Source of the DNA: Sedimenticola hydrogenitrophicus
Lineage (GTDB): Bacteria > Pseudomonadota > Gammaproteobacteria > Chromatiales > Chromatiaceae
DNA: 64,000 nt
Assembly: GCF_029017505.1 (NCBI RefSeq)
Contig: NZ_JAQGEI010000019.1
Coordinates: 1 to 64,000, forward strand
Reading direction: 5' to 3'
Shown here: piece by piece, positions 22,926-42,178 of the stretch
Layout of the letters: each line of letters opens with the position of its first letter
Numbering within the stretch: position 1 is the first letter of the stretch
The notes under the pieces: generated by a model
What the model saw: the letters and a program-made list of their open reading frames with translations, nothing else
Database searches by the model: none
Told to the model about the DNA's origin: nothing
Made by a program: the position numbers and the translations under genes

Positions 22926-23987
22926 GTGATAAACCGGCGCCATTTCAACGGCTGGCTGGCCGCCGCCCTCTGCGCTGGATGGAGCGGTGCGGTGCGACCG
23001 CAGGCCACCGCCGGCACCCCGCTGCGCGTGGCCGCCCTGCAGATGACACCCAGGCTGGCCGACCTGCAGGCCAATCTGGCCCAGGCGGAACAGTTGATTC
23101 GCCAGGCCCGGAAGCAGGGGGCACAATGGATTGTATTACCGGAACTGTTCACCACGGCAGCCGCCTTCCACCCGGATATGTTGGCCGCCATCCAACCGCA
23201 CGACGGTACACCGGCCGCGCTGCTCCGGCGTCTTGCCCGTGACACTGGTTGCACCATCGGCGGCTCCTTTCTCGCCAGCCGCCAGGGAGAGGTCTACAAC
23301 AGTTTTCTGCTCTGTCATCCCGATGGCCAGGTGCAACAGCATGACAAGGATCTGCCCACCTACTGGGAGCGCTGCTTTTACCGCGGCGGAATGGACGATG
23401 GGGTGCTGGACACCCCGCTCGGCGGGGTCGGTGCGGCACTCTGCTGGGAGATGATCCGCTCCGATACCCTGCGCCGCCTGCACGGTCGGGTGCGGCTGCT
23501 GCTGTGCGGCTCCTGCTGGTGGACCCTGAGTGACGATGTGGAGGCGGATAACCCCCTGCGCGCCATCAACCTGGAAATGCTGCGCCAGGCGCCGGTGAAC
23601 TGTGCCCGTATCCTGGGCGTGCCGGTGGTGCACGCCTCCCACGCCGGTCGGTTCAACGGCTTCTTCAGCCCCGACCTGCCGGATGTGCCCTATGACTCCA
23701 GCTACCTGGGGGAGAGCATGATCGTGGATGCCCAGGGGCGGGTGCTGGCGCGAAGGGATGCGACCCAGGGTGCCGGGGTTGTGCTGGCCGATATCGTCTT
23801 GCCGGCACATGCCCAGCCGCTGCAACCACTGCCCGACACTTTTTGGTTGCCGGCGCGGATGCCGCAACCCTGGCGCTCCTCCTGGGAACGCTGGTTGACG
23901 AGCGGAGCGCGCTATTACGAATCGGTCACCCGGCCTTATCTGCAGAGCGTTGAAATCAACGAATATATACCGGAGTACATGCTGTAA
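22926..23987 (+). CDS. Carbon-nitrogen hydrolase (nitrilase superfamily) with Tat-type signal
   Basis: The product has 353 aa. The catalytic Glu is in IVLPELFTT, the Lys in HDKDLPTYWE and the Cys in ALCWEMIRSD. The N-terminus NRRHFNGWLAAALCAG is a twin-arginine pattern followed by a hydrophobic stretch ending near QATA, so this enzyme probably acts in the periplasm, which is rare for the superfamily. It starts at GTG with only a weak ribosome site, perhaps relying on coupling to the upstream nitrilase gene. A C-terminal extension (about 300-353) is not part of the core fold. The substrate is unknown; amide or nitrile. Confidence 0.8.
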   Translation: MINRRHFNGWLAAALCAGWSGAVRPQATAGTPLRVAALQMTPRLADLQANLAQAEQLIRQARKQGAQWIVLPELFTTAAAFHPDMLAAIQPHDGTPAALLRRLARDTGCTIGGSFLASRQGEVYNSFLLCHPDGQVQQHDKDLPTYWERCFYRGGMDDGVLDTPLGGVGAALCWEMIRSDTLRRLHGRVRLLLCGSCWWTLSDDVEADNPLRAINLEMLRQAPVNCARILGVPVVHASHAGRFNGFFSPDLPDVPYDSSYLGESMIVDAQGRVLARRDATQGAGVVLADIVLPAHAQPLQPLPDTFWLPARMPQPWRSSWERWLTSGARYYESVTRPYLQSVEINEYIPEYML

Positions 23988-24069
23988 CCGGTATCTGTAC
24001 AGGGGCGGTGATCGATGCTGGCGATAGTGCCGGTGTCAATTCAGATCCTCTGGGTATGAGGAGAACATC

Positions 24070-24525
24070 ATGAATGCGACAACGATCTATCATGCAAGCT
24101 GCTTTTGTGGCGGGGTAGCGATGACCCTGACCGGTGAGCCGGAAGTGATGGCCTACTGCCACTGTGACTCCTGCCGCCGCTGGTCCGCCGGTCGGGTCAG
24201 TGCCTTTACCTTGTGGAAACCGGAGAGCCTGGCGATTACCCGGGGTGCGGAACAGATAGCCAGTTATGAGCAAAACCCCCGTTCTGATCATCAGCAGGTG
24301 GTCAGCAAACGCAAGTGGTGCAAAGTATGCGGCGGGCATCTCTATACCGATCACCCCACCATGGGATTGATTGATGTCCCGTCAGCGGTAATTGATCATT
24401 TTCATTTTGAACCGGCATTTCATGTGCACTATCAGGAGTCCGTACAACCCATTCGGGATGGGTTGCCCAAGTTCAAGGATTTACCCAAGGAGGCCGGCGG
24501 CAGCGGGGATCGGCTGTCTAAGTGA
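24070..24525 (+). CDS. GFA/CENP-V family zinc protein
   Basis: The product has 151 aa. Zinc-binding cysteines occur as CFCG, CHCDSC and CKVCGG, the pattern of the glutathione-dependent formaldehyde-activating enzyme family. Many members have unknown activity, so GFA activity is not assured. GAGGAGA precedes the ATG. The last 135 bases of this locus (24406-24540) recur as a direct repeat at 34170-34304, marking the left edge of the glycolate cassette. Confidence 0.88.
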   Translation: MNATTIYHASCFCGGVAMTLTGEPEVMAYCHCDSCRRWSAGRVSAFTLWKPESLAITRGAEQIASYEQNPRSDHQQVVSKRKWCKVCGGHLYTDHPTMGLIDVPSAVIDHFHFEPAFHVHYQESVQPIRDGLPKFKDLPKEAGGSGDRLSK

Positions 24526-24540
24526 GGTGCGGTTTCACCC
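24406..24540 (+). repeat. Left copy of the 135-bp direct repeat (GFA 3' end)
   Basis: It spans the last 40 codons of the GFA gene, its stop codon and 15 bases beyond. It matches 34170-34304 over exactly 135 bases without gaps, with nine mismatches by eye (about 93 percent). Same orientation. Confidence 0.9.
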
Positions 24541-24828
24541 TGGGAGCCTGTCGGGTTTGACCAACCGTAGTTTCGTCGGGTGAGGAGTGGTACATAGAAA
24601 TTGTTTTCAATTAAGCATTTGTTATGGCTGGGCGGACGGCGGGGCAGTGCCGGGGACGAGGAGCAGGGTTCACCCGGCAGGAAGCAGAGGGCAGGGCTAT
24701 GGATCGGTTATCAGGTTTCTATTGCGCATTGCGAATTGCGCAGGGTGCCAGAGGTCGGGCGTAGCGACACAGCGGCCTGATCGCAAACGTCAGGCACCCT
24801 TGATGATGGGAAGGTTTTGCGCGGTGGA
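24541..24828. other. Intergenic region between GFA gene and glcC
   Basis: No gene is seen. It contains GTGAGGAGTGGTACAT (24580-24595), a fragment of the repeat found at 1783 and 61769. There is also an inverted pair AGGGTGCC / GGCACCCT (24742-24749 and 24793-24800) that could form a weak terminator for glcC. Confidence 0.45.
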
Positions 24829-25569
24829 TCAGGCGTCGCTGTCCGTGAGGGCCGAGCGAAGGATGTTCTTTTCCTGTTGTTCGATCTGGCGCAGGGCGTC
24901 ACTGACATGGCGCACATGGGCCATGGCGGCCTTTTGTGCCCACCGGGCCTGGCGGCTGATCACGGCGTGGTAGATCTGTCGATGGTGCTTGTCGATCTGC
25001 TGCTTGAAGGCGGTACGGTGGCTGAGATTCAGTACCGAGGCCTGCACCGAGTACAGCATCAGGTTCTTGAGGCTGCTAAGAATGTGCACCAGCACCGGGT
25101 TGTGGGCGGCGCCGGCGATGGCGCGGTGGAAGGCGTGGTCAAGATTGGCGTTGGTCAGCGGGTCAGCCGCCTCCATAGCCTCGAAGGCCTGGGTAATGCG
25201 GTACTGATCCTTGCCGGTGGCACGCTGCGCGGCGAGATAGGCCGCCTGGCCTTCGAGCTGCTCGCGCACTTCGAACAGGTCGTAGAGTGTGCGGGCATGC
25301 CCAAAATACAGGTTCACCAACGGGCCCGTATCGTCAGGCTCTGTGACAATACTGGAAACGAAGGACCCCTGGCCATGGCGGGTTTCAATGATGCCGCGCC
25401 CATGCAATTCGTGCAGGGCCTCGCGAATGATGGCACGGGAAACGCCCAGCTTTGCCGCAAGCGCACGTTCGGACGGTATTTTCTGTTCCGGTGCCAGGGT
25501 GCCATCAAGAATCAGTTCTTCCAGGTGGCGCGCGATCGACTGGGCGATGGGCGGGGCTTTGTTTTTCAT
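24829..25569 (-). CDS. glcC: GntR/FCD-family regulator, GlcC-like
   Basis: The product has 246 aa. The GntR winged helix spans residues about 5-75 (IARHLEELILDGTLAPEQKI, PSERALAAKLGVSR, LHGRGIIETRHGQGSFV). An FCD ligand domain spans about 90-225 with FEVREQLEGQAAYLAA and metal-site His residues (DHAFHRAIA, DKHHRQI). The FadR/GlcC/LldR/PdhR branch recognises TGGTnnnACCA. Two such sites lie in the adjacent divergent promoter region, and the neighbouring genes are glycolate oxidation and TRAP uptake genes. GlcC is the simplest assignment; an LldR-like lactate regulator is the alternative. Confidence 0.82.
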   Translation of the reverse strand: MKNKAPPIAQSIARHLEELILDGTLAPEQKIPSERALAAKLGVSRAIIREALHELHGRGIIETRHGQGSFVSSIVTEPDDTGPLVNLYFGHARTLYDLFEVREQLEGQAAYLAAQRATGKDQYRITQAFEAMEAADPLTNANLDHAFHRAIAGAAHNPVLVHILSSLKNLMLYSVQASVLNLSHRTAFKQQIDKHHRQIYHAVISRQARWAQKAAMAHVRHVSDALRQIEQQEKNILRSALTDSDA

Positions 25570-25577
25570 CTTTGTGT

Positions 25578-25592
25578 ACTGGTTAGACCAGT
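25578..25592. promoter_or_regulatory. Candidate GlcC operator 1
   Basis: The palindrome ACTGGTTAGACCAGT fits the FCD-GntR consensus TGGTnnnACCA. It begins 9 bases upstream of the glcC start codon, so binding should repress or autoregulate glcC. Confidence 0.8.
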
Positions 25593-25684
25593 TCTCCGTG
25601 GGATCTCTGTGGGCGGCGGTGGTATGGCCTCATGCCGCTTACTATCGGCTATCGTCCCTGGAGCGTCCACACAGGCACAGAACA

Positions 25685-25701
25685 AACTGGTCAGACCAGT
25701 T
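25685..25701. promoter_or_regulatory. Candidate GlcC operator 2
   Basis: The perfect palindrome AACTGGTCAGACCAGTT is the second TGGTnnnACCA site, centred 108 bases from the first and about 180 bases before dctP. The roughly ten-turn spacing would allow looping between two dimers. Confidence 0.82.
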
Positions 25702-25874
25702 ATGAATTCGATGGACGCCGCACCGTAAACTGGCGAATCTCGGTGTCAGCAAGGCGTGCTGCGCGGCGTTTGGATGAAGATGAACAGGGTACCACAGACC
25801 CTGGATCCAGCCCCGCGGTTTACGTCCATGCAGAGCTAGCCCATACAAATAACGAGGCCAAAGGAGAACATCCC

Positions 25875-26996
25875 ATGATCAACCCGTACACCAAGACCGA
25901 TACCCCCGCACCGCATCGACGCGGATTTCTGAAATCTGCCGTCTTGGCATCCGCCGCCCTGCTGGGCGCCACCATGCTGGCACCGGCCCAGGCCTCCGCC
26001 GCCCAGACCTGGAAGGTTCAATCCGTATGGGACGCGGGTACCGTGGGTTACGACCTGTTTGAGCAATGGGCCAACGAGATGGAGGAAAAAACCGCTGGCG
26101 AGCTGAAAATCAAGCCGTTTCCGGCTAAATCAGTTGCAGCGGATAACAATGCATTGTTCGATGCGGTGCGCAACAACGTGCTGCAGGGCATGAACCCCTT
26201 CACCATCTATTGGTCCGGCAAGATCCCTGCGTCCGTGTTTCTGACCTCTTACCCGGCAGGCCCCGATCAGCCCGCTCAGTGGGACACCATGTTCTACAGC
26301 ATGGGCATGCTGGAAAAAACCCGTGAGATCTACAAAAAATTCGGCCTGTTCTATGTCGGCCCCATTCAGCATGACGCCAACATCATCCATGCCAAGAAGG
26401 CGGTCAAATCCCTGGAAGACCTCCACGGCATGAAGATGCGTCTGCCAGGCGGCATGGTGGCGGAAGTGTTTGGCAAGTTTGGCGTATCCAGCGTCAGCCT
26501 GCCGGGGTCGGATATCTTTCCGGCGCTAGAGAAAGGCACCATAGATGCAGCGGACTATGTCGGTCCTGCGGTGAACTACGAACTGGGCTTTTCACAGGTG
26601 ACCGATACCATCCTGATGGGGCCTCCGGGCGTCATGTCGATCTACCAGCCGGTGGATCTGATGGATCTCACCGTTAACCTGCGTTCCTGGAACAAGCTGT
26701 CACCCAAGGTGCAGAAAATTGTTGAAGACGAGGTACGCAGCTATTCGCAACGTCATTATCTGACTATCCAGAAGCGCAACATCCTGGCCATGGAGAAATT
26801 CAAGGCCGACGGTACCGCGGTATCACGTCTGTCCCAGGCGGACGTAGAGGCGTTTCGTCGCGCTGCCATTCCCATCTGGTTCAACTGGGCCAACAAGGAT
26901 GCAGATGCCCGGGCGATATTTGACATGCAGCTCGAATACATGATGAACGAGACCGTCGGCTACATCAGCCCCGATGACATCAAGGGTATGGAGTAA
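25875..26996 (+). CDS. dctP: TRAP transporter substrate-binding protein, Tat-type signal
   Basis: The product has 373 aa. I chose the ATG at 25875, with AAAGGAGAAC upstream. The N-terminus has a twin-arginine motif (HRRGFLKSA) and cleavage near AQASA, so it is a soluble periplasmic receptor. Family features are AQTWKVQSVWDAG at the mature start, ALEKGTIDAADYVGPAVNYELGF and the conserved ligand-binding Arg in LHGMKMRLPG. The overall pattern is closer to the monocarboxylate/2-oxo-acid (TakP-like) branch than to C4-dicarboxylate DctP. With glcDEF next to it, glycolate, glyoxylate or lactate are plausible ligands; this is inference. Confidence 0.88.
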   Translation: MINPYTKTDTPAPHRRGFLKSAVLASAALLGATMLAPAQASAAQTWKVQSVWDAGTVGYDLFEQWANEMEEKTAGELKIKPFPAKSVAADNNALFDAVRNNVLQGMNPFTIYWSGKIPASVFLTSYPAGPDQPAQWDTMFYSMGMLEKTREIYKKFGLFYVGPIQHDANIIHAKKAVKSLEDLHGMKMRLPGGMVAEVFGKFGVSSVSLPGSDIFPALEKGTIDAADYVGPAVNYELGFSQVTDTILMGPPGVMSIYQPVDLMDLTVNLRSWNKLSPKVQKIVEDEVRSYSQRHYLTIQKRNILAMEKFKADGTAVSRLSQADVEAFRRAAIPIWFNWANKDADARAIFDMQLEYMMNETVGYISPDDIKGME

Positions 26997-27061
26997 CCCG
27001 GCAGGCCGAATTCGGGGGAGGGCTGCGAGCCCTCCCTGTTCATTATGCGAGGTGGTACGTC

Positions 27062-27763
27062 ATGTCTGATTTAGAAGGCTTTGGTTTCGTCATGCCGCAC
27101 TGGTTTTACTGGGGCTGGCTGGCGGTTATGCCGCTGATCATGATTGCGCTGGATCGGCGGGAAATAAAAAAAAGGGGGTCGCTTGAATCTTCGACGATAC
27201 TGGAATGCGAACTCAAGGCCGATGACGATCCGGTTATCAAATACCCTTCCAGTGGTAACCGTCTGACCCGGATTATCGATTGGGCGAGCGAGAAATCCGG
27301 TGTTTTCGTGTCTTTCTGGACGGTAAACGCGGTCTGCTTTTACTTTTTCGAAGTCATCATGCGCTATGTGTTCAACATGCCGACGGTCTGGGTGCATGAG
27401 GCCAGCTTTCTGTTGCTGGGCATGCAGTACCTGCTGGCGGGCGGCTTCGCGCTGCTGCACGGATCACACGTGCGGGTGGATGTCATGTACAACTTCCTGC
27501 CGGAGCGTGGACGTGTCGGCATGGATATATTTACGTCAATGTTCTTTTTCATCTTCGCGCTGGCCCTGGTCTGGACCTCCTGGACCTTTTTTGCCGATGC
27601 CTACTCCATGGGCGAAACCACGGTGGAAACCTGGGGTATCCAGTATTGGCCGGTCAAGGCGGTCATGCTGCTCGGTGCCGTACTGATTCTGCTGGCCGGA
27701 ATCTCGAAACTGATCAAGGACATTGCGTTGTTCGTCCTTATGGGGCGGGAGACAAACACGTGA
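27062..27763 (+). CDS. dctQ: TRAP transporter small permease subunit
   Basis: The product has 233 aa, longer than typical DctQ (about 170). An extra N-terminal membrane segment (about 13-30) and a charged loop precede the usual four helices. The family signature HGSHVRVDVMYNFLPERGR is clear. It forms the integral membrane complex with DctM. Its stop overlaps the GTG start of dctM (GTGA), implying translational coupling. Confidence 0.88.
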   Translation: MSDLEGFGFVMPHWFYWGWLAVMPLIMIALDRREIKKRGSLESSTILECELKADDDPVIKYPSSGNRLTRIIDWASEKSGVFVSFWTVNAVCFYFFEVIMRYVFNMPTVWVHEASFLLLGMQYLLAGGFALLHGSHVRVDVMYNFLPERGRVGMDIFTSMFFFIFALALVWTSWTFFADAYSMGETTVETWGIQYWPVKAVMLLGAVLILLAGISKLIKDIALFVLMGRETNT

Positions 27764-29313
27764 ATACCAAAGTGATGCAAGTGAACCTGGCCGGCGCCCG
27801 CACGGGCGGCTCAGTCGGAGGTACCCTGGGTACCTGGCTGATGATTCTGGCGACCCTGTCGATGGCGGTGATTATCGGTGTCGAGATGATCAATACGCTG
27901 TTCTACGACCCTTATGAAGACGATTACTTTCTGTTTCGTCTGGCTGGCAGCATGGAAGATGTGGCCATCGGACCCCTGACCTACCTGATGTTTGGTTCTC
28001 TGCTGGTGGCGCTGATGATGGGGCTACCACTGACCTTCGTGACCGGCGGTCTGGGGGTGATGTTCATCTATCTGGTGGGTGATGCCACCATGCTGAACAT
28101 CATTCCGGGGCGTATTTTCCCCATGATGACCAACTCGGATCTGGCCGCCATACCGCTGTTCATCTTCATGGCGTCGATGCTGGAACGCGCCGGTCTTATC
28201 GAGGAAATGTTCAACGTCGTCTACAAGTGGATGGGGGGCCTGAGCGGCGGTCTTGCGACCGCTACGATTCTGGCATCGACCATTCTGGCTGCCATGGTGG
28301 GTGTTATCGGCGCGGCCGTTGTGACCATGGGCATTATTGCCCTGCCTGCCATGCTCAAACGCGGATATGACCATCAGATTGCGCTGGGTTCCATCATGGC
28401 CGGTGGCACCCTGGGTATTCTGATTCCGCCGTCGATCCTGGCTATCCTCTATGCTGTGGTGGCACAGCAGTCGGTGGGCGAACTCTACCTTGGGTCCATC
28501 ATTCCGGGGCTGATGTTGTCAGGCATGTATATTGCCTATGTGCTGATCCGCACCAAGCTTAACCCCAAACTGGGGCCACCGGTGCCGCCGCAAGAGCGCA
28601 TCTCCTTCGGGCAGAAATTGCTGCTGCTCAAGGACCTGGTTGCGCCCCTGGTGTTGGTGATGCTGGTGCTTGGCCTGCTGTTCGGGGGTATCGCCACGCC
28701 GGTAGAAGCGGCCGGGATCGGTTCCTTCGGCGCCATGCTGGTGGCGATGAAACACGGTGCTTTCTCGGTGGAAGCGCTAAAGGATGCCTCCGTGACCACC
28801 GCCAAGGCATCCGCCATGGTGCTGTGGATCATGTTTGGTGCCTCGGTGTTCGTCGGCTTTTACATTCTGCAGGGCGGCCAGGAGTTTATTACCCAGTCAA
28901 TTTTGTCCACGGGCATGTCGGCCTATGGCATCCTGTTTCTGCTGATGATCCTGCTGGTAATTCTGGGCATGTTCCTTGACTGGGTTGGCATTCTGCTGCT
29001 GGCGGTGCCTATCTTCATTCCCATCGTCCAGGCGCTGCAATTCGAGGGTCTGTTTGGCCTGCCGGGTGTCGCCGGAGATGATGTGGTGCTCTGGTTCGGC
29101 GTTCTTTATCTCGTGAACATGCAGATGTCCTTCCTCAGCCCGCCTTTTGGCTATGCGCTGTTCTATATCCGCGGCGTTTGTCCGCCGGAAATTACCATGG
29201 CCACCATCTTCAAGTCGTCGCTGGTCTTCCTCGCGCTCCAGGCGGTGGGATTGATGCTCTGCGTGCTCATGCCGGGCGTGGTGACCTGGTTGCCCAATCT
29301 GGTGTATGGCTAG
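27760..29313 (+). CDS. dctM: TRAP transporter large permease subunit
   Basis: The product has 517 aa from the overlapping GTG at 27760; ATG 27775 is an alternative. It is a multi-spanning ion-coupled permease with DctM hallmarks: GLPLTFVTGGLGVMFIYLVG, IPLFIFMASMLERAG, GVIGAAVVTMG, GTLGILIPPSI and GMFLDWVGILLLAVPIF. It is longer than the usual 430 aa because of an N-terminal extension with one or two extra helices. A GC hairpin follows (29325-29347). It uses an ion gradient to import the ligand delivered by DctP. Confidence 0.9.
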   Translation: MNTKVMQVNLAGARTGGSVGGTLGTWLMILATLSMAVIIGVEMINTLFYDPYEDDYFLFRLAGSMEDVAIGPLTYLMFGSLLVALMMGLPLTFVTGGLGVMFIYLVGDATMLNIIPGRIFPMMTNSDLAAIPLFIFMASMLERAGLIEEMFNVVYKWMGGLSGGLATATILASTILAAMVGVIGAAVVTMGIIALPAMLKRGYDHQIALGSIMAGGTLGILIPPSILAILYAVVAQQSVGELYLGSIIPGLMLSGMYIAYVLIRTKLNPKLGPPVPPQERISFGQKLLLLKDLVAPLVLVMLVLGLLFGGIATPVEAAGIGSFGAMLVAMKHGAFSVEALKDASVTTAKASAMVLWIMFGASVFVGFYILQGGQEFITQSILSTGMSAYGILFLLMILLVILGMFLDWVGILLLAVPIFIPIVQALQFEGLFGLPGVAGDDVVLWFGVLYLVNMQMSFLSPPFGYALFYIRGVCPPEITMATIFKSSLVFLALQAVGLMLCVLMPGVVTWLPNLVYG

Positions 29314-29324
29314 ACGCATCTACC

Positions 29325-29347
29325 CGGGCCGTCCGGTGGGCGGCCCG
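29325..29347 (+). terminator. Hairpin after the TRAP genes
   Basis: The stem CGGGCCG / CGGCCCG has a 9-base loop and is followed by TTC only. It is a possible weak terminator separating the TRAP genes from the glc genes. Confidence 0.5.
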
Positions 29348-29361
29348 TTCAACGACTGAGC

Positions 29362-29574
29362 CCGCTGCGCATGGCTGTGGTGGTGGATACTCAGAATGCG
29401 GCTGATCCCGCTTACCGGCGCATGCTGCCGGACCTGGAGCGCAGTGTGGCATTCCAGGCAGCCTGTGACCTGATTTTCAAGGGCTGTGAACAGCCCAGTG
29501 GTTATACCGAGCCATTGTTGCACCAGCGTCGTGGTCAACAAAAGGCGTTGCAATTCGCGCGTCAGGCCGGTTGA
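29362..29574 (+). pseudogene. glcB: C-terminal remnant of malate synthase G
   Basis: About 67 codons match the extreme C-terminus of malate synthase [17 protein letters not shown], then [14 protein letters not shown] and [14 protein letters not shown], with a normal stop. The remaining roughly 650 codons, including the catalytic TIM barrel, are missing. The similarity begins just after the TRAP terminator, so the gene was cut at its 5' side. The tail lies 95 bases before glcG. The protein would have condensed glyoxylate with acetyl-CoA. Confidence 0.82.
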
Positions 29575-29669
29575 TTAAAGCGTTTTCTTCCCATAACGGG
29601 GCAGCCTGCCGGCGCCCCCGGGCGAGGGTTCAAGCGCGCTCGCCATGCTCATTTTTCAAGGAGCCACAG

Positions 29670-30104
29670 ATGTTGACCATTAACCGACTCGACCAGGCCG
29701 ATGCGCGCCTCCTTATCGCGGGTGCCGCGGCGCGGGCAACAGAAATCGGCATACCCATGTGTATCGCCATCACCGATGAGTGCGGCAACCTGCTGGCCTT
29801 CGAACGCATGGACGGGGGCAAGGTCATCAGTATTACCATCGCCCAGGACAAGTCCTTTACCGCGAGTGCCGCGCGCAAGGCTACCCACGAATATAATGCA
29901 GCCTGTGTGCCGGGCAATCTGATGTTCGGCATACACACGGCCCTGGGCGGACGCCTCTGTGTGGTGGGCGGGGGCTTGCCGGTCATTGTGGACGGCGAAG
30001 TCGTTGGCGGCATCGGCCTGAGTTCCGGTACGCCGGCCCAGGACATGGACTGTGCCCAGGCCGGTATCGATCATTTTTTGCAAAGCCGGCACCAGGGTGC
30101 CTGA
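29670..30104 (+). CDS. glcG: GlcG / HbpS-like protein
   Basis: The product has 144 aa from the ATG at 29670, with AAGGAGCC upstream. Conserved segments are AITDECGNLLAFERMDGG, SFTASAARKATHEY and GGLPVIVDGEVVGGIGLSSGTPAQDMDCAQAGI, as in GlcG of glycolate operons and the heme/cobalamin-binding HbpS/PduO-C family. The biochemical role of GlcG is not settled. It begins the glcG-D-E-F run; the next gene starts 31 bases later. Confidence 0.9.
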   Translation: MLTINRLDQADARLLIAGAAARATEIGIPMCIAITDECGNLLAFERMDGGKVISITIAQDKSFTASAARKATHEYNAACVPGNLMFGIHTALGGRLCVVGGGLPVIVDGEVVGGIGLSSGTPAQDMDCAQAGIDHFLQSRHQGA

Positions 30105-30135
30105 GTAAAACGCCAAGCCCATGTGGAGCGCTGTG

Positions 30136-31608
30136 ATGACCGAAGTATCGAAACCTGACAAGGCCCGGCTGGTTGAACTCTTGCGCCGCTTTATCGATCC
30201 CGAGTCTGTGATTGACGATGCCGAGACCCAGCGCCCCTACGAGTGCGATGGCCTGTCGATGTATTGCGAAATGCCGCTGGTCGTGGTGCTGCCGGATACG
30301 GTCGAGCAGGTGCAGCAGGTGCTGCGCATCTGCCACCAGCATTCGATTCCCGTGGTGGCCCGGGGGGCCGGAACCGGACTCTGTGCCGGTGCCATGCCCC
30401 ACGCCGAGGGCGTGGTGCTGTCCCTGGCCAAATTCAACCGCATCCTGTCGATCGACCCGCTGGCGCGCAGCGCCCGGGTACAGCCGGGCGTGCGCAACCT
30501 GGCCATTACTGAAGCCGCTGCCGAACAGGGTCTGTACTACGGGCCTGATCCGTCCTCCCAGATTGCCTGCACCATCGGCGGCAATGTGGCCGAAAACTCC
30601 GGCGGTGTACATTGCCTGAAATACGGTCTTACCGTACACAATATTCTCAGCGTCGAAATGCTCAGCGTCGAGGGCGAGAAGCTCAGCATCGGCAGCCAGG
30701 GGCTGGACAGCTGCGGCATGGATCTGCTGGCGCTGATCACCGGGTCCGAGGGCCTGCTGGGCATTATTACCGAGGTTACCGTCAAGCTGCTGCCCCAGCC
30801 CGAGAAGGCCCAGGTGGTGCTGGCGGCCTTCGACAGCGTGCAGCAGGCCGCTGATGCCGTGGGTGGCATCATTTCGCGGGGCATTATTCCCGCCGGCCTG
30901 GAAATGATGGATACCCACGCCATCCGTGCGGCGGAAGACTTCGCCAGGGCCGGTTACCCCGGGAATGCCCAGGCGCTGCTATTGTGCGAAGTGGATGGCA
31001 CCATCGAGGAGGTACAGGAACATATCGCCCAGGTGGAGGGCCTGTTTGCCTCCTTCGGCGCCACCTCGGTACGCACCTCCCAAAGTGAAACCGAGCGCGC
31101 ACTGCTGTGGAAGGGTCGCAAGTCGGCATTTCCGGCGGTCGGCCGCATTTCGCCGGACTATTACTGTATGGACGGGACCATTCCGCGCAGTCAGCTGGCC
31201 CACGTACTGACCGAGATGCAGCGTCTGTCCGGCGAATACCAGCTGCGCGTCGCCAACGTCTTTCATGCCGGCGATGGCAACCTGCATCCGCTGATTCTGT
31301 TTGATGCCAATGTGCCGGGCGAATTCGAGAAAACCGAAGAGTTTGGCGCTCGCATACTGGAACTCTGTGTCCAGGTCGGGGGCTGCATCACCGGCGAACA
31401 TGGTGTGGGCATTGAAAAAATCCGCCAGATGCCGATCCAGTTCAACGAGCAGGAGCTGTTGCAGTTCAATGCCATCAAGGATGCCTTTGATCCTGCCGGT
31501 ACCCTGAATCCCGGCAAGGGCGTACCGACGCTGCGCCACTGTCAGGAATACCGCTCACTGGAGACCAAAACCATGCCCCCATCCACCTCAGTCAAGGGAG
31601 CAGCCTGA
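30136..31608 (+). CDS. glcD: Glycolate oxidase FAD-binding subunit GlcD
   Basis: The product has 490 aa. I chose the ATG at 30136 because GGAG lies 8 bases upstream, inside the first codons of an alternative start at 30121. The FAD-binding (PCMH) domain has VVARGAGTGLCAGAMPH, YGPDPSSQIACTIGGNVAENSGG and HCLKYGLT. The C-terminal oxidase part has VFHAGDGNLHPLI and GCITGEHGVGIEKI. It oxidises glycolate (possibly D-lactate) to the 2-oxo acid with GlcE and GlcF and passes electrons to the membrane quinone pool. One base separates it from glcE. Confidence 0.94.
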   Translation: MTEVSKPDKARLVELLRRFIDPESVIDDAETQRPYECDGLSMYCEMPLVVVLPDTVEQVQQVLRICHQHSIPVVARGAGTGLCAGAMPHAEGVVLSLAKFNRILSIDPLARSARVQPGVRNLAITEAAAEQGLYYGPDPSSQIACTIGGNVAENSGGVHCLKYGLTVHNILSVEMLSVEGEKLSIGSQGLDSCGMDLLALITGSEGLLGIITEVTVKLLPQPEKAQVVLAAFDSVQQAADAVGGIISRGIIPAGLEMMDTHAIRAAEDFARAGYPGNAQALLLCEVDGTIEEVQEHIAQVEGLFASFGATSVRTSQSETERALLWKGRKSAFPAVGRISPDYYCMDGTIPRSQLAHVLTEMQRLSGEYQLRVANVFHAGDGNLHPLILFDANVPGEFEKTEEFGARILELCVQVGGCITGEHGVGIEKIRQMPIQFNEQELLQFNAIKDAFDPAGTLNPGKGVPTLRHCQEYRSLETKTMPPSTSVKGAA

Positions 31609-31609
31609 T

Positions 31610-32674
31610 ATGGCGGATATCGTTCCACTGCTGCAGCAGCAGATTCTGTCGGCCAGGGATCAGGGTACCAAACTCAATATCATCGGTGGCACCAGCAAGG
31701 CCTTTATGGGCCGTGTCGCCAGCGGTGACCCCCTGAATGTGGGTGGTCACCGCGGCATTGTCAGCTATCAGCCGGTCGAGCTGGTGCTCACGGCTCGGGC
31801 GGGGACGCCGCTGATCGAACTGGTGGCAGCCCTGGACGAACACGACCAGATGCTGTCCTTTGAGCCGCCGCGCTTCAGTGCGGCATCGACCCTGGGCGGC
31901 ACCCTGGCGTGCAACCAGTCCGGGCCCGGCCGGCCCTGGTGGAGCTCGGTGCGCGATCAGGTGCTGGGGGTCCGGCTGCTCAATGGCCGCGGCGAGCACC
32001 TGCGCTTTGGCGGCCAGGTGATGAAAAATGTGGCCGGTTATGATGTTTCGCGTTTGCAGGCCGGTGCCATGGGCAGCCTCGGTCTGATTACTGAAGTCAG
32101 TCTCAAGGTCTTGCCCCGGCCTGCCGTCAGCTGCACCCTGGCGTTCGATCTGGGGCTGGAAGACGCCCTGGGGCTGATGAACCGGCGCGCTGCCGAGCCC
32201 AAGCCGCTGTCGGCGGCCTGCTGGCTGGACAACCGCCTTTACCTGCGTCTCAGCGGTGCCCCGGCGGCAGTGGATGCCACTGTCCGGCAATGGCTGGGGC
32301 AGGGGGAACGACTGGACGATGGCGATGCATTCTGGGTGGCACTGCGCGACCAGAAACTGGCGTTTTTCGCAGGGAAGGCGCCGCTGTGGCGCTTTTCGGT
32401 GAACCCGACCGCCGCCAATCCCGCACTCGAGGGTGACTGGCTGATCGACTGGGGCGGCGCCCAGCGCTGGTACCGCGGGGATGCGTCCATGGCGCAGATG
32501 CAGGCAATGGCAGAGGCGGCGGGCGGCCAAGTCAGCCTGTTTCGTGGCGGCGATCGCCAGGCCGAGGTCATGCATCATCAACCCCAGGCCCTTCAGACTC
32601 TTCAACAGCGACTCAAGCAGTCTTTCGACCCGGATGGCGTGTTCAATCCCGGGCGTCTGTATGGCTGGATGTAA
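31610..32674 (+). CDS. glcE: Glycolate oxidase FAD-binding subunit GlcE
   Basis: The product has 354 aa, the typical length. It is a second PCMH-type FAD domain with KLNIIGGTSKAFMG, FEPPRFSAASTLGGTLACNQSGP and VMKNVAGYDVSRLQAGAMGSLGLI. It forms the oxidase with GlcD and GlcF, and is translationally linked to glcD. Confidence 0.94.
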   Translation: MADIVPLLQQQILSARDQGTKLNIIGGTSKAFMGRVASGDPLNVGGHRGIVSYQPVELVLTARAGTPLIELVAALDEHDQMLSFEPPRFSAASTLGGTLACNQSGPGRPWWSSVRDQVLGVRLLNGRGEHLRFGGQVMKNVAGYDVSRLQAGAMGSLGLITEVSLKVLPRPAVSCTLAFDLGLEDALGLMNRRAAEPKPLSAACWLDNRLYLRLSGAPAAVDATVRQWLGQGERLDDGDAFWVALRDQKLAFFAGKAPLWRFSVNPTAANPALEGDWLIDWGGAQRWYRGDASMAQMQAMAEAAGGQVSLFRGGDRQAEVMHHQPQALQTLQQRLKQSFDPDGVFNPGRLYGWM

Positions 32675-32688
32675 CAGGCAGGTTTGCA

Positions 32689-33897
32689 ATGAAAACGAAC
32701 ATATTGGCGCAGTTCAAAGACAGTGCCCGGGGACAGGAAGCCGAGTCGATCCTGCGCAGCTGCGTACACTGCGGCTTCTGCACGGCAACCTGCCCGACCT
32801 ACCAGGAACTGAATGACGAGCGGGATGGCCCGCGCGGGCGTATTTACCTGATCAAGCAGTTGCTGGAGGAGGGCACGGTCACCGAGAAAACCCGCACCCA
32901 TCTGGACCGCTGCCTGACCTGTCGCAGCTGTGAAACCACCTGCCCGTCGGGGGTGCAGTACGGCCGGCTGGTGGATATCGGCCGCGGCATCGTCGAGGAA
33001 AAACTTCAGCGTCCGCCCGCGCAGCGGCTGCTGCGCTGGGGGCTACGCCGGGTGCTGCCATATCCGGCGCGTTTTGGGGCTCTGCTGCGCCTGGGGCAAA
33101 GCGTCAAGCCGCTGTTGCCGGCGGTGCTCAAGGCCAAGCTGCCACCGAGGCGGGAGCCGAGCCCCTGGCCGGCCGGCAGTCATCCGCGGGTGATGCTGGC
33201 GCTGGCCGGCTGTGCCCAGCCAGCCACGGCACCGAACACCAATGCAGCGACGGCGCGGGTACTGGACCGCCTGGGCATCAGCCTGGTGGAGGCGCCCCGG
33301 GCCGGCTGTTGTGGCGCGGTGAGCTATCACCTGTCGGCCCATGATGAAGGGCTGGATTTCATGCGGCGCAATATCGATGCCTGGTGGCCGGCCATTGAGG
33401 CCGGCGCCGAGGCCATCGTCATGACCGCATCCGGTTGTGGCGCCATGGTGCAGGAATACGGGCACCTGTTGCGTGATGATCCGGCCTATGCCGACAAGGC
33501 ATACCGGGTCAGCGAACTGACGCGGGATCTGGGGGACATCCTGCTGCAGGAGGACCTGTCGGTACTCAGCCATGACAAGGGGGCGGGCAAGGTGGCGTTC
33601 CACTGCCCCTGCACGCTGCAGCACGCCATGAAGCAGAGCGGTGTGGTGGAGCAGGTGCTGGAAAGGGCCGGTATCGAATTGGCCAAAACCCGCGACAGGC
33701 ACCTGTGCTGCGGCTCGGCCGGCACCTATTCGATCCTGCAACCGGACATGAGCCAGAAGCTGCTGCAGAACAAGCTCGAGGCACTGACAATCGATAATCC
33801 GCAACGTATCGTCACGGCAAACATCGGTTGTCAGCTGCACCTGGAATCCAGGGCTGACCGACCGGTCCAGCATTGGATCGAGCTGCTCGATGCCTGA
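32689..33897 (+). CDS. glcF: Glycolate oxidase iron-sulfur subunit GlcF
   Basis: The product has 402 aa. Two 4Fe-4S motifs are CVHCGFCTATCPT and CLTCRSCETTCPS. Two CCG domains follow (APRAGCCGAVSYH, then HCPCTLQHAMKQ...LCCGSAGTYS). It transfers electrons from GlcD/E toward the membrane. It is the last intact gene of the cassette; a truncated regulator start and the GFA repeat follow. Confidence 0.94.
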   Translation: MKTNILAQFKDSARGQEAESILRSCVHCGFCTATCPTYQELNDERDGPRGRIYLIKQLLEEGTVTEKTRTHLDRCLTCRSCETTCPSGVQYGRLVDIGRGIVEEKLQRPPAQRLLRWGLRRVLPYPARFGALLRLGQSVKPLLPAVLKAKLPPRREPSPWPAGSHPRVMLALAGCAQPATAPNTNAATARVLDRLGISLVEAPRAGCCGAVSYHLSAHDEGLDFMRRNIDAWWPAIEAGAEAIVMTASGCGAMVQEYGHLLRDDPAYADKAYRVSELTRDLGDILLQEDLSVLSHDKGAGKVAFHCPCTLQHAMKQSGVVEQVLERAGIELAKTRDRHLCCGSAGTYSILQPDMSQKLLQNKLEALTIDNPQRIVTANIGCQLHLESRADRPVQHWIELLDA

Positions 33898-34081
33898 GCC
33901 GAAGATGAGGCATGTCTGAGGCCGGGATGCAGGCAGGCGGCCATTTGGGTGATAAACTAGCGCCCATTGAGTCTGCCTCGTCCCGGTGTAGTCGTACAGT
34001 TTCGTGTTTCAGGTGCGGGTAATGCACGCGGGGGCTGGGCAGTTGGTGTGGCGCAGGCCTTGTGCAAGGATTACAGAAAAC

Positions 34082-34174
34082 ATGAACGACAGCCTGAATG
34101 GCGGGCCCAAAGCCGGCAAGAAAACCTCTTCATCCGGTGCGGTGCAGGTACAGTCCCTGCCCCGTGCCCTTTGA
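34082..34174 (+). pseudogene. Truncated N-terminus of a probable IclR-type regulator
   Basis: A 30-codon frame begins at ATG with AAGGA upstream and ends in GAVQVQSLPRAL, then a stop created at the repeat junction (34170). IclR regulators often open with a low-complexity leader followed by VQSLxRALxLLE, so the sequence breaks exactly where the winged helix should start. The stub is short, so the family call is an inference. Confidence 0.5.
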
Positions 34175-34304
34175 GCCGGCATTCCATGTGCACTATCAGG
34201 AGTCCGTACTACCCATTCGGGACGGGTTGCCCAAGTTCAAGGATTTACCCAAGGAGGTCGGCGGCACCGGGGATCGGCTGGCTGAGTGAGGTGTGGTTTC
34301 ACCC
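34170..34304 (+). pseudogene. GFA-family 3' fragment, right copy of the 135-bp direct repeat
   Basis: It encodes FEPAFHVHYQESV, then LPIRDGLPKFKDLPKEVGG and a stop, corresponding to the last 40 residues of the protein at 24070-24525. The zinc-binding part is absent. Its changes from the left copy are mostly silent or conservative, so it may derive from a related allele rather than a very recent duplication. Confidence 0.88.
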
Positions 34305-34344
34305 CAGCGTTTTTTTCCGTGTGGGCGCGGTCGACTGACGCCGT

Positions 34345-36450
34345 TCAGCGGGTCAATCGCCGGTAGATGTCGGAGACCTTCAGCGGCAGCGCGCGCACAT
34401 CGTCCACCACGCTGTAGGCGGCCGGGCCATAGAGGTGGGGCAGGTAGTCCCGCGCCTGCTCGTCGATGGTGATGCAGTAGGGGTGGATGCCGCCGCGCCG
34501 CGCCTCGATCAGGGCGCGGCGGGTATCCTCGATACCGTATTGACCCCGGTAGCCGTCGTAGTCATCCGGCTTGCCATCGGAGAGGGTGATGAGCAGGCGG
34601 GTCTTGGCCTCGGTCTGCTGCAACACCCGGGACAGGTGGCGGATGGCAAAGCCCATGCGGGTATAGTCCTGGGGTTCGATGGCGCTGATCCGCCCCCTGA
34701 TCAGTTCGCTATAGGGCTCTTCGAAGTGCTTGATGTGGAACAGCTCGCAGCGCTTGCGGGTCATGCCGGAGAAGCCGTAGATGGCGTAGCGGTCGCCCAG
34801 GCTCTGCAGCGCCTCGCACAGCAGCAGCAGGGATTCGCGCTCGGCGTCGTTGATCCAGCCCTTGGTGGAGCCGCTCATGTCCACCATGAAGACCACCGCG
34901 ATGTTACGTTCGTTGCGCTGCATCCTGGTGAGCAGGCGTTCGGTCATCTCGAAACCGAGGTGGGCATCCGCCAGCGCCTCCACCAGGGCATCGATATCCA
35001 CCCCATCACCTTCCGGCTGGCGTTTCAGCAGCCGGTTCTCGTGGCGCATCGCCTCGAAGGTCTTGCGCAGGTGCTTGACCAGGCCGTGGTGTTTGGCCAG
35101 GGTGCGGGCCGCGAAATCGTCATACAGCGGGGTGATCTCGCGCTCCCGCACGGCGCACCAGTTTTTCCGGTAATGGCGGCGCTGGAAGTCCCACTCGTCA
35201 TAGAGGTGGGCCCCCTCCTCGTGATAGCTGCCGCGCCAGACATCGTCAGCATCACGCGTCGGATCGCGCAGCAGGGCCGAATCATAGTCGCCCGGCCCGG
35301 CGGGTTGCAGGTAGTCGTCCGGGATCTCCCCCAGGTCGAGCAGGATGGAGCGTTGCAGCGCCTGCACCTCATCGGGCAGCGGCGCCGGCATATCGTCCAG
35401 CAGGATCTCGACGCGGAAACCCTCCGGCACGGACGGGTCCTCCTCGCGCTGTTTGGTAAAGCGGGATGGCCGCTTCTCCCGGACATTGCCCGGCAGCTCC
35501 TCCAGCAGGCTGTTCAGCGCCACCTTGAAACGGGCTCGCTCCTTTTCGATCCGCACCTGCATGCAGGTCCGCACCGCCTCCAGGTCCAGGATGATCGGCT
35601 GTCCGGTGGACGGGTAGGGTGTGAGTCGGCCGAGTTGCTGCCGGGCCAGCACCAGCACATCGGTAGCCTGGGTTTCCGGTGTCTCAAGCCGCGCCAGAAG
35701 CCCTGTCCACTCGGCCGGCAGGGCCGCCTCACCGAGCGCCTGGCAGATCTGTTCGAGCTGCCGATGGAGCCCCGGCAGGGCGCGTCGCAGACACGCCTTC
35801 AGGCGCAGCAGCTCCATGGCGTGATAGAGCGCCAGGAGCCCGGGATCGGGAGCGTTGAGGGACAGCAGCGGGCGGAAGGAGCCAAAGCGAATCTGCGCCC
35901 AGAGCAGGGCGCAGGTGACCTTGTAGAGCTGGAAGTTTTGCCCCGGGGTCGGCAACCCCGCCAAAAGTGGCGGCAGGAACAGGGTCTCGCTATCGGTATG
36001 GATGGTGTCCGCCGCGCTGAGCTTGAGCGGCCGCCCGGAGAGCCCCCGGAGAAAATGGCTCAGCACCCCCTCGTGCTCCTGCAGCAACGCGCCGCGTGAC
36101 CGAGCCTGCTGCTGCCCGGCAAATTGCCGGTACTGTTCGATCACCCGCAGGGCCGGGCGCAGTCCCTCGGCATCGTAGCGATCCATGCTGTGGAAGATCC
36201 AGGCCTCGAAGTCGTCCGGCGCCATCAGCGCCTGCGCCGCCACGCCGCGACAGGCGACCTGGTAGCCCAGCTCCACGTGGGTACTGGCAATGCGCCGGAT
36301 CCAGCTGATCAGCCGGGCCTGGCGCTCTGCCGGCAGGGCGGCGATAGCGGCGGCCGGTTGCGCCGTGTCGCGGAACGAGTACTCCACCTCCAGCAGTTCG
36401 TCCAGCTGTTGCCGGACCGCGGGCAGGGAGAGCGGGACCCCGGGTTTCAT
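34345..36450 (-). CDS. vWA-domain protein of the CbbO/NorD family
   Basis: The product has 701 aa. A long helical N-terminal part (about 1-450) is followed by a C-terminal von Willebrand A domain with an intact MIDAS motif, DMSGSTKG (DxSxS), and later TLSDGKPDDYDGYRG. It pairs with the upstream AAA+ gene, one base away. In this family the vWA protein links a MoxR-type AAA+ ring to a client: Rubisco (CbbQO) or nitric oxide reductase (NorQD). Neither rbcLS nor norCB is in the window, so the client is open. The length lies between typical NorD and CbbO. Confidence 0.85.
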   Translation of the reverse strand: MKPGVPLSLPAVRQQLDELLEVEYSFRDTAQPAAAIAALPAERQARLISWIRRIASTHVELGYQVACRGVAAQALMAPDDFEAWIFHSMDRYDAEGLRPALRVIEQYRQFAGQQQARSRGALLQEHEGVLSHFLRGLSGRPLKLSAADTIHTDSETLFLPPLLAGLPTPGQNFQLYKVTCALLWAQIRFGSFRPLLSLNAPDPGLLALYHAMELLRLKACLRRALPGLHRQLEQICQALGEAALPAEWTGLLARLETPETQATDVLVLARQQLGRLTPYPSTGQPIILDLEAVRTCMQVRIEKERARFKVALNSLLEELPGNVREKRPSRFTKQREEDPSVPEGFRVEILLDDMPAPLPDEVQALQRSILLDLGEIPDDYLQPAGPGDYDSALLRDPTRDADDVWRGSYHEEGAHLYDEWDFQRRHYRKNWCAVREREITPLYDDFAARTLAKHHGLVKHLRKTFEAMRHENRLLKRQPEGDGVDIDALVEALADAHLGFEMTERLLTRMQRNERNIAVVFMVDMSGSTKGWINDAERESLLLLCEALQSLGDRYAIYGFSGMTRKRCELFHIKHFEEPYSELIRGRISAIEPQDYTRMGFAIRHLSRVLQQTEAKTRLLITLSDGKPDDYDGYRGQYGIEDTRRALIEARRGGIHPYCITIDEQARDYLPHLYGPAAYSVVDDVRALPLKVSDIYRRLTR

Positions 36451-36451
36451 C

Positions 36452-37258
36452 TCAGAACAGGGAGGAGGAGAGTTCGTTCACCGAGGCGAGCATCTCCGGG
36501 TCGTCGGTGAGGGCCTGGGCGATCGCCCCCTGACAGGCGGAGACCGGGTTGACCCCGGCCACCATCAGTTTGGCGGCGTGTACCAGCAGGCGGGTGCTGG
36601 CCCCCTCTTCCAGCCCGCTGCCCTTGAGGTTGCGGGTCATGCCGGCGAACTTCACCAGCCGTCCGGCCAGCTCCCGGTCCAGTCCCGATTCGCGCATCAC
36701 GATCTCGCCCTCCAGCGCCGCCCCGGGGTAGTTGAACTCCAGCGCCACGAAGCGCTGCCGGGTGCTCTGTTTCAGGTCCTTGAGCACGCTCTGGTAGCCG
36801 GGGTTGTAGGATATGGCGATGGCGAACTCCGGATCGGCCTCGATCAGGGTGCCGAGCTTCTCTATCGGCAGCACCCGGCGGTCATCGGCCAGGGGGTGGA
36901 TCACCACCATGGTGTCCTTGCGCGCCTCGACGATCTCATCCAGGTAACAGATGCCGCCCGCCTTGACCGCCTGGGTCAGGGGGCCGTCGATCCAACTGGT
37001 CTCGCCGCCCTTGATCAGGTAGCGTCCCACCAGGTCGGAGGCGGTCAGGTCGTCATGGCAGGAGACGGTGATCAGCGGCCGCTTGAGCCACCACGCCATG
37101 TACTCCATGAAGCGGGTCTTGCCGCAGCCGGTCGGCCCCTTCAGCAGCAGCGGCAGCTGGTTGCGGTAGGCCGCCTCGAACAGTTCGATCTCGTCGCCGG
37201 TGGGCTGGTAATAGGGCTCATCCTCGATCCGGTACTCATCCAGTCTGAAGGTGCGCAT
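36452..37258 (-). CDS. MoxR-family AAA+ ATPase, CbbQ/NorQ type
   Basis: The product has 268 aa, the normal length. The P-loop is GPTGCGKT (residues 41-48), Walker B is [10 protein letters not shown], sensor 1 is AISYNPGYQ, and the Arg-finger region is STRQRF. The N-terminus [15 protein letters not shown] and the C-terminal [22 protein letters not shown] are typical of CbbQ/NirQ/NorQ. It forms hexamers that remodel the client through the vWA partner. It is first in a two-gene operon. Confidence 0.92.
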
Positions 37259-37479
37259 CCGTGGATACTCCTGGGTTACTGCCTGGGCGCTCTAGCATGC
37301 TGGGGATCGGGGGCGAGATCAACAAGCGGAAAGTAAGGATTTTTTTATGGCGCTATAGTGGCAGGCAGGAAGGGAAGGCGCATCGCTCGACCTTCGGGTG
37401 CATTTCTCTGGTTGAAAAACGGAAGCATATTCAATAACTTTCAAAAAGCTTAACCATTCCGGCTGACAGGAGCAGTTTC

Positions 37480-38949
37480 ATGCGGGACAGAGTGAGCAGC
37501 AGCATGACAGTGGAGGATATCCTGGACCGCCATGTGCGCAGCCAGGCGTTTGCGGAGATCGGCACCTGGGACTGGAATATCCGGACCGGGGAACTCTACT
37601 GGAGTGAACGTATCGGTCCGTTGTTCGGTTACCCGCCGGGCGAACTGGAGACCACCTATGAAAACTTCCTGTCGGCGGTCCATCCGCAAGACCGGCAGGC
37701 GGTGGTCGGGGCGGTCGATGGTTGTGTCGCGCGCGGCGAGCCCTACGAGATCGAACACCGCGTGGTCTGGCCCGACGGCAGCGTCCGCTGGGTGTTGGAA
37801 CGGGGCGATGTACAGCGCGACCGGGACGGCGTACGGCTACGCATGCTCGGCGTAGTGCAGGATGTCACGCGCCGCATCCAGGCCGAGGCGGCGCTGCAGG
37901 AGCAGATCCTGCGCAACCGGCTGATCCTGGAGAACAGCCATGACGGGTTGATCATCCTGAACCTCGACGGCTCCCTGCGCGAGGTGAACGACGCCTATTG
38001 CCGGATGGTGGGGTATGAGCGGCCGAGCCTGCTGAAGATGCGGCTCGCCGATCTGGAGGCGAGCGAAACCGCCCGGGAGGCGGCACAACACATCAACAAG
38101 ATCGAGGCCCAGGGGCATGACCATTTCGAATCGAGTCACCGGTGCCGTGACGGGCGCCTGATCGATCTGGATATCAGCGCCACCCTGGCCACGGTGGGAG
38201 CGGATCGGTTTATCTTCTCCTTCGTCAGGGATGTCACGGAACGCCGGATGAAGGAGCAGCAGCGGCTGCAGGCGGTACAGCGCCAGCGCGACACCCTGGT
38301 CCGGGAGGTCCACCATCGCATCAAGAATCACCTGCAGGGGATTATCAGTCTGCTGCGCAACCACACCCGGGACAAACCGGAGCTCTCCGCGGCGATGGAG
38401 TCGGCCATCGGCCAGGTGGAGTCGATCGCCTTGGTGCACGGTCTGCAGAGCCGCCTGAACCAGGGCAGGATCGAGCTCAAGGCGCTGTTGCAGATGATCT
38501 GCGCGGCGGTGAATAAACTGAGCTCCACGGAGATTCGACTGGAGATCGGCTGCCGCTCGACGGATATTGTGGTCCGGCCGAGCGACGGTGTGCCACTGGC
38601 ACTGATCATCAATGAGCTGCTGCAGAATGCCGTGAAGCACAGCCCGCCGGCGGGTATCCGCTCGTCCGGGCTAACGGCAACGCTGCTGAGGGAGGGTGAG
38701 AGGGTGATCCTGCAGTTGAGCAATCCAGGCACGTTGCCGTTGCCGGCGGATTTCGATCTGCAAAAGGGGCTTGGGCTGGGTACCGGCCTGACCCTGGCGC
38801 GGGATCTGCTGCCGCACCGTGGGGCCGGGCTCTCCCTGACCTCGGTGGCCGACCGGGTGATTGCGCAACTGACCCTGGAGGCGCCCGTCGTCAGCCTGAA
38901 GGCGTGCCCGGTTGCTCAGGATGGATCGGAACCGAAGCGGTTGATGTAG
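37480..38949 (+). CDS. PAS-PAS sensor histidine kinase, HisKA_2 type
   Basis: The product has 489 aa, with AGGAG 8 bases before the ATG and no membrane segment, so it is cytosolic. The first PAS (about 20-135) has GTWDWNIRTGELYWS and WPDGSVRWVLERG; the second (about 145-255) has NSHDGLIILNLDGSLREVN. The phospho-acceptor box is REVHHRIKNHLQGIISLL, the HisKA_2 pattern, followed by a divergent ATPase domain (LALIINELLQNAVKHS, GLGTGLTLARDLL). Its 3' end overlaps the convergent ANTAR regulator gene by 34 bases. HisKA_2 kinases commonly drive ANTAR regulators. Confidence 0.9.
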   Translation: MRDRVSSSMTVEDILDRHVRSQAFAEIGTWDWNIRTGELYWSERIGPLFGYPPGELETTYENFLSAVHPQDRQAVVGAVDGCVARGEPYEIEHRVVWPDGSVRWVLERGDVQRDRDGVRLRMLGVVQDVTRRIQAEAALQEQILRNRLILENSHDGLIILNLDGSLREVNDAYCRMVGYERPSLLKMRLADLEASETAREAAQHINKIEAQGHDHFESSHRCRDGRLIDLDISATLATVGADRFIFSFVRDVTERRMKEQQRLQAVQRQRDTLVREVHHRIKNHLQGIISLLRNHTRDKPELSAAMESAIGQVESIALVHGLQSRLNQGRIELKALLQMICAAVNKLSSTEIRLEIGCRSTDIVVRPSDGVPLALIINELLQNAVKHSPPAGIRSSGLTATLLREGERVILQLSNPGTLPLPADFDLQKGLGLGTGLTLARDLLPHRGAGLSLTSVADRVIAQLTLEAPVVSLKACPVAQDGSEPKRLM

Positions 38950-42077: not shown

Positions 42078-42082
42078 GCGAA

Positions 42083-42157
42083 ACTGGGGTGAGGAACGAA
42101 CCCCCACAGCATGGCGCACCCGCGTGAAGCCGTTGGGGTTCGTAGGCTCACCCCAAC
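42083..42157. repeat. Hairpin repeat GTTGGGGTTCG type (related copy at 14474-14561)
   Basis: It sits between the convergent chemoreceptor and hspQ genes, six bases after the chemoreceptor stop. The arm GTTGGGGTTCGTAGGCTCAC matches the 14.5-kb copy with one change; the left arm is degenerate. It might serve as a terminator. Confidence 0.65.
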
Positions 42158-42178
42158 GGGATGGGAGCATAATCGGGG

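Follow-up and report, generated by a model that had tools for sequence, protein, structure and literature searches.

We analysed a 64,000-nt stretch of Sedimenticola hydrogenitrophicus DNA (the window; contig NZ_JAQGEI010000019.1, positions 1 to 64,000), in which a glycolate oxidase operon lies between two direct copies of the 3′ end of a gene of the GFA family. The window lies on a contig of 99 kb (C19) from a genome, here called G000, whose completeness is estimated at 100%. The two copies, A and B, are each 135 nt long, lie on the same strand with a start-to-start spacing of 9764 bp and share 93% identity. The first-pass annotation had described a same-orientation match of 135 bases with about nine mismatches and no gaps; alignment gave exactly 9 substitutions, each located by position, and 0 gaps. 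It had also placed glcC, TRAP (tripartite ATP-independent periplasmic) transporter genes and glcG-D-E-F between the repeats, a reading borne out by Pfam families and gene order: from A to B run glcC on the minus strand, dctP, dctQ, dctM, glcG, glcD, glcE, glcF and then the start of an iclR-type gene. Missing from it were two fragments of native dispersed repeats at the left end of the insert, one of which is the end of a miniature inverted-repeat transposable element (MITE)-like repeat. The features of the locus are as follows.

24070..24525 (+), intact GFA-family gene, 151 aa, whose 3′ end is copy A (PF04828, E 1.1e-19)
24406..24540 (+), direct repeat copy A, GFA codons ~113 to stop plus 15 nt
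24540..24570 (+), truncated terminal end of a MITE-like repeat, 31 bp, starting precisely where copy A ends (29/31 match to the end sequence)
24569..24594 (+), 26-bp truncated beginning of another native dispersed repeat (dispersed matches)
24595..24828 (no strand), intergenic stretch, 234 bp, with no DNA match below E 0.1 among those listed for the nine genomes of the genus
24829..25569 (-), GlcC-type GntR/FCD regulator (PF07729, PF00392; best NCBIfam model PRK09990 GlcC, 261.5 bits, below the cut-off of 301)
25632..26996 (+), DctP-type TRAP solute-binding protein, true start probably downstream (PF03480, E 1.5e-39)
27062..27763 (+), DctQ-type TRAP small membrane subunit (PF04290)
27646..29313 (+), DctM-type TRAP large membrane subunit, given from the listed open reading frame (ORF) start, true start probably downstream (PF06808, E 1.4e-71, residues 116-544)
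29571..30104 (+), GlcG/HbpS-like protein (PF03928)
30121..31608 (+), GlcD, flavin adenine dinucleotide subunit of glycolate oxidase (PF02913/PF01565; PRK11230 GlcD, 751 bits, below the cut-off of 897; tree)
31610..32674 (+), GlcE (PF01565; synteny)
32689..33897 (+), GlcF, iron-sulfur subunit (PF02754, Fer4)
34082..34169 (+), start of an IclR-type regulator (~30 codons), cut at copy B (match to the gene after glcF in locus L037)
34170..34304 (+), direct repeat copy B, a detached GFA 3′ end with frame and stop preserved
34345..37258 (-), native right flank, a VWA-domain protein and a NorQ/CbbQ-type AAA ATPase (CbbQ_C PF08406; VWA_2 25.5 bits, below the cut-off of 27)

The genes glcD, glcE and glcF stand in order with a GlcC-type regulator, with Pfam cut-offs passed, as in a glycolate oxidase operon. 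By family, the cassette is predicted to import glycolate or a similar acid through the TRAP system and to oxidize it to glyoxylate by GlcDEF.

A BLAST search of the whole own genome with copy A returned only copy A itself and copy B (E 2.7e-53), and the repeat is therefore not a chance match. The nine mismatches are scattered along the 135 bp, leaving a longest identical run of 34 bp. Comparison with G001, a genome of the same genus, revealed the empty site. Window positions 23986-24540 align to positions 13623-14177 of its contig carrying the GFA region (L005), window positions 34170-37343 align to L005 14043-17216, and the two alignments overlap on L005 by exactly 135 bp. G001 thus has a single uninterrupted GFA 3′ end, directly joined to the VWA/AAA genes, which is the contiguous GFA gene that the first-pass annotation had proposed to look for in relatives. 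G000 is longer here by 9,764 bp, a 9.76-kb segment that G001 lacks. An assembly artefact is unlikely, since the identical run shared by A and B does not exceed 34 bp and both flanks lie collinear, in order, on one G001 contig; a chimera was rejected on these grounds. The GFA protein is 97% identical between the two genomes.

The GFA gene was searched in a comparison set of 55 genomes, nine of them from the same genus, as gene DNA and then as protein at E ≤ 1e-20. Gene DNA matched two genomes, G000 and G001, and protein matched three, the third being G018, a genome of the same family, at 66%. In the other seven same-genus genomes no GFA match was found at these thresholds, and these genomes therefore cannot separate gain from loss at the site. 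The VWA region has long matches in G002, G003, G004, G006 and G008 and short ones only in the less complete G005 and G007. Two further differences from G001 were seen on the flanks of the locus. A second nitrilase-like gene (22926-23987), just upstream of the GFA gene, is open in G000; G001 lacks ~890 bp of it (23096-23985) and shows a 7-bp overlap where the flanks meet. To the right, the tract 37521-42200, with genes for a PAS-sensor kinase and a chemotaxis receptor, diverges from G001 by ~10-33% per 200-bp bin, unlike much of the other aligned sequence, which differs by only a few percent; it looks like a recombination tract or a fast-evolving one.

The phylogeny and gene order of the cassette point away from the genus. 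GlcD-based searches gave a set of loci (the best 80 of 593 confirmed, some ending early at contig ends), and the order glcC-dctPQM-glcGDEF with all eight genes was found in 8 of the 80, all from Marinobacter, at protein identities of 59-83% to the cassette (8 loci); one further Marinobacter locus, L045, has seven of the eight genes. The cassette therefore shares the identical eight-gene order of the Marinobacter operon, but here a truncated iclR follows and the cassette sits beside a GFA gene in a Sedimenticola-like genome. In a GlcD tree of 106 rows, built by a quick method with supports from the Shimodaira-Hasegawa-like approximate likelihood ratio test (SH-aLRT) only, the cassette GlcD falls in a clade of 28 rows (SH-aLRT 99) that includes Oceanospirillaceae, Marinobacter, Enterovibrio, Halieaceae and Psychrobacter and no row from the same genus. 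Inside this clade it lies in a 13-row fork (support 80) with Oceanospirillaceae and Marinobacter. A second, native GlcD, encoded on contig C20, groups with the same-genus sequences, and the GlcD, GlcE and GlcF of this native locus are 65, 49 and 63% identical to those of the cassette. Because the cassette GlcD lies outside the genus while a native, genus-type glc operon has been kept, horizontal gain is indicated. No TRAP match was found within 12 kb of the native glc locus, and the relatives of the cassette DctP besides itself, found in 6 of the 9 genus genomes at E ≤ 1e-30, reach identities of only 27-29%, so that within the genomes sampled the TRAP uptake system counts as new to the lineage.

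Searches for a source of the cassette were made at several levels. The nearest GlcD relative is 84% identical. Among the listed cassette matches of at least 500 bp outside the window in the 55 genomes, identity does not exceed 73%; shorter stretches reach 95%. Neither the GlcD relatives nor this 55-genome search yielded a direct donor. Of 72,556 plasmid records, GlcD gave 80 matches at E ≤ 1e-100; the 15 listed are at 62-64% identity and 61 are under 60%, so no close plasmid source was found. Codon use and phylogeny, the checks suggested by the first-pass annotation, differ in outcome: the GlcD tree is foreign, but the composition is only weakly distinct, with a G+C content at third codon positions (GC3) of 0.80 in 16 flank genes versus 0.74 in 8 cassette ORFs and each cassette gene on its own inside the 0.62-0.91 spread of the flank genes. 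A foreign origin of the cassette is well supported, and within the genomes sampled the cassette is foreign to the genus.

Both joints of the insert can be read, and the repeat has edges of two sorts, with a MITE end behind the GFA gene at the right edge of A and a joint of unrelated genes at the left edge of B. Homology stops abruptly at both, the 60 bases that follow A being unlike the 60 bases right of the G001 copy and the 60 bases that precede B being unlike those left of A. At the right joint, iclR codon ~30 meets GFA codon ~113 with ~1 shared base (judged by eye, with L037 as a stand-in for the donor). The iclR start matches the iclR-type gene of L037 over 59 bp of DNA at 81% and over 20 aa at 80%, and L037 is the sole convincing match among the 80 glcD loci. 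Nothing recognisable as the other half of iclR was found at the left end of the insert by six-frame translation. The intergenic stretch there gave only scattered short tblastx rows against the 80 glcD loci (best E 0.002).

At the left joint, the MITE-like family to which the 31-bp fragment belongs has similar inverted ends (TAGGAGCCTGTCGG...), often beside CTAG, in both G000 and G001. A 21-base pattern of the end, allowing up to 2 mismatches, occurs at 41 sites in G000 and 41 in G001, with 0 for a reversed control; a second inverted end is present in 18 of 20 fetched stretches, which measure 69-268 bp from end to end, 162 bp in 10. The left-end query gave no match below E 0.29 among those listed for the seven other genus genomes. 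No inverted MITE end was found at the right edge of the insert, where the best match, 15/31, is under the mean of 15.8 from 200 shuffles. The second dispersed repeat, whose core resembles a hairpin (TGAGGAGTGGTACA...TGTACC...), occurs at 1784-1826, 24581-24594 and 61726-61768 of the window and at many places in G000 and G001.

The divergence of the repeats bears on their age. Per 135 sites, A and B differ at 9, A and G001 at 7, and B and G001 at 6. With the gene of G018 as the outgroup, the derived states fall in A at sites 15, 98, 112 and 115 and in B at sites 41 and 89. The odd copy shares its base with the outgroup at two third codon positions, sites 6 and 54, and site 125 lies beyond the gene. 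By these counts, A and B are about as different from each other as copies from separate lineages. Under a Poisson clock, the probability of at least 9 differences is 0.006 for a duplication at half the split age, 0.06 at three quarters and 0.21 at equal age. The 7 differences between A and G001 in 135 bp, compared with 7 in the preceding 336 bp, are not a significant excess (Fisher P 0.13). Mapping a crossover within the 135 bp against G001 and the G018 gene gave no usable signal.

On balance, and with moderate confidence, we propose that a horizontally acquired glycolate operon entered beside the GFA gene by non-site-specific recombination between diverged GFA alleles, with one homologous and one illegitimate side. 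The 135-bp GFA homology flanks the insert on both sides, and the other joint, at an arbitrary place within iclR, is without homology. In this scheme, DNA from a related strain would have supplied a fragment running from GFA codon 113 to the gene end, through the MITE end and the cassette, to iclR codon 30. Its free ends may have been joined into a circle with one illegitimate joint, iclR to GFA, and a single crossover of this circle, inside the 135 bp, with a GFA allele lacking the MITE would give the observed structure; a linear equivalent recombining with a sister chromosome is an alternative route. A and B would then be two diverged GFA alleles and not att sites. The donor strain, the circular or linear form and the order of these events are inferred. 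A comparable process has been described in E. coli, where, in a lacZ assay, 56 of 60 clones gave the polymerase chain reaction (PCR) product for a partial duplication of the homologous gene and 14 sequenced duplications of 109-950 bp were attributed to a single crossover of a trimmed circular molecule (PMC3240628). There as here, foreign DNA lies between a direct duplication of part of a gene, of 109-950 bp there and 135 bp here; unlike the engineered conjugative plasmid used there, the present case is a natural 9.6-kb cassette whose flanking copies are 7% apart. Homology-facilitated illegitimate recombination likewise has one homologous and one illegitimate side and gains foreign DNA, but it typically deletes recipient DNA of similar size, with inserts of ~1 kb and microhomology of 3-10 bp, in contrast to the duplication and 9.6-kb gain seen here (PMC3240628). 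Unequal crossing-over of sister chromatids in transformation can also create duplications (PMC3784515).

Several points weigh against this proposal. The clock argument depends on nine sites, assumes equal rates and is rough, with a P of 0.06 at three quarters of the split age. When the nine sites are classed by the copy that G001 agrees with, a single crossover fits 6 of 9, which is equalled by 84 of 126 arrangements, so that the sites reveal neither loop-out in G001 nor the place of a crossover. The GlcD fork that ties the cassette to Oceanospirillaceae and Marinobacter proper has a support of only 80 and is drawn open, and the donor allele proposed here, GFA-MITE-cassette with an intact iclR, was not found in any genome. 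The homology-facilitated illegitimate events in E. coli (4/60) gave deletions and not duplications (PMC3240628). The genome has a ComEC-family match; the same search also finds ComEC in E. coli, so this is a weak indicator of competence. Ku-dependent end joining was rejected, as the own genome (estimated to be 100% complete) gave no Ku match, and neither the ComEC nor the Ku result settles the route of entry. Finally, the left edge, a mosaic of two native repeats that are both truncated, is also compatible with template switching during replication.

Such template switching at a stalled fork within one lineage would have run from the GFA 3′ end to the 31 bp of MITE, the 26 bp of the second repeat and a foreign fragment before re-entering 135 bp upstream, a path that accounts for the two adjoining truncated native repeats and, through the upstream re-entry, for a direct repeat around the insert; it also accords with the lack of a Ku match for end joining. 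It predicts, however, that A and B were identical at birth, and they are as far apart as copies of separate lineages (P 0.006 and 0.06 for half and three quarters of the split age), while a left edge exactly at a MITE terminus suits a MITE transposed behind the GFA gene better than random switching. We regard it as unlikely. Still more doubtful is an old insertion in the common ancestor of G000 and G001 that was later looped out of G001 by recombination between A and B. The divergence of A from B is not below that of either from G001, and direct repeats are able in principle to recombine; PMC2884548 reports direct repeats, mostly <30 bp, on both sides of 10-18% of small variable segments and names deletion between them as one source of variation. 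Against it, G001 has no clear hybrid with A on the left and B on the right, a test of little power, and the other seven same-genus genomes, with no GFA match at the thresholds used, offer no older state to read. The loop-out of the module suggested by the first-pass annotation is conceivable, but the repeats, short, 7% diverged and identical over 34 bp at the longest, are poor substrates for it.

The same annotation had weighed an island at the gene 3′ end against recombination between GFA alleles; some form of recombination at GFA gives the best account, and the site-specific island is not supported. In the island reading, the GFA 3′ end would be attB and A and B attL and attR, with an integrase acting in trans or since lost. 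As in att-flanked genomic islands, the repeats are direct, the gene is left intact at its 3′ end and a relative has a clean empty site. The 34-bp identical run might contain a short core, and the empty candidate attB site of G001 is also expected under other mechanisms. The genome has 11 tyrosine-integrase matches (PF00589) on other contigs, so that action in trans is formally possible, but 0 of the 11 lie on the 99-kb contig, in agreement with the annotation's statement that no integrase is present, and none was found in the insert genes or scanned flanking ORFs (serine recombinases were not searched genome-wide). Unlike such islands, the locus has diverged repeats and truncated end genes, its right end cutting iclR and its left end being a native repeat fragment. 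We therefore disfavour an att-site island and consider it very improbable. A composite unit with MITE ends, transposed in trans by a related transposase, seems equally improbable: a MITE end stands exactly at the left boundary (29/31), but the inverted end is missing at the right junction (best 15/31 versus a shuffle mean of 15.8), and a target duplication of 135 bp is far too long for a MITE-type element.

Elsewhere in the window, a separate dispersed repeat of 168 nt occurs at 9475-9642 and 56911-57078 in copies 90% identical. G001 has an inverted copy (L005 3267-3433) between its matches to window positions 13112 and 13100, where the window is without it, and the repeat therefore looks mobile. 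At 4619-4911 lies an array of 12-bp tandem units within the span of a 227-aa ORF (4231-4914, minus strand) that has no Pfam match.

In summary, an operon gained horizontally through imprecise recombination is an ordinary type of event, and the scars here are unusually readable. We consider it quite improbable that the GFA 3′ end serves repeatedly as a landing site, with the cassette continuing to travel between strains in circular form via the 135-bp GFA tract and without a dedicated recombinase; if this were true, glycolate use would be a swappable trait in the clade. The locus also cautions that a long direct repeat at the 3′ end of a gene is not necessarily an att site. The lineage already possessed a native glc operon when it gained this second, complete catabolic one together with a transporter and a regulator, apparently with no dedicated mobile element involved, and the empty site and both joints remain legible.

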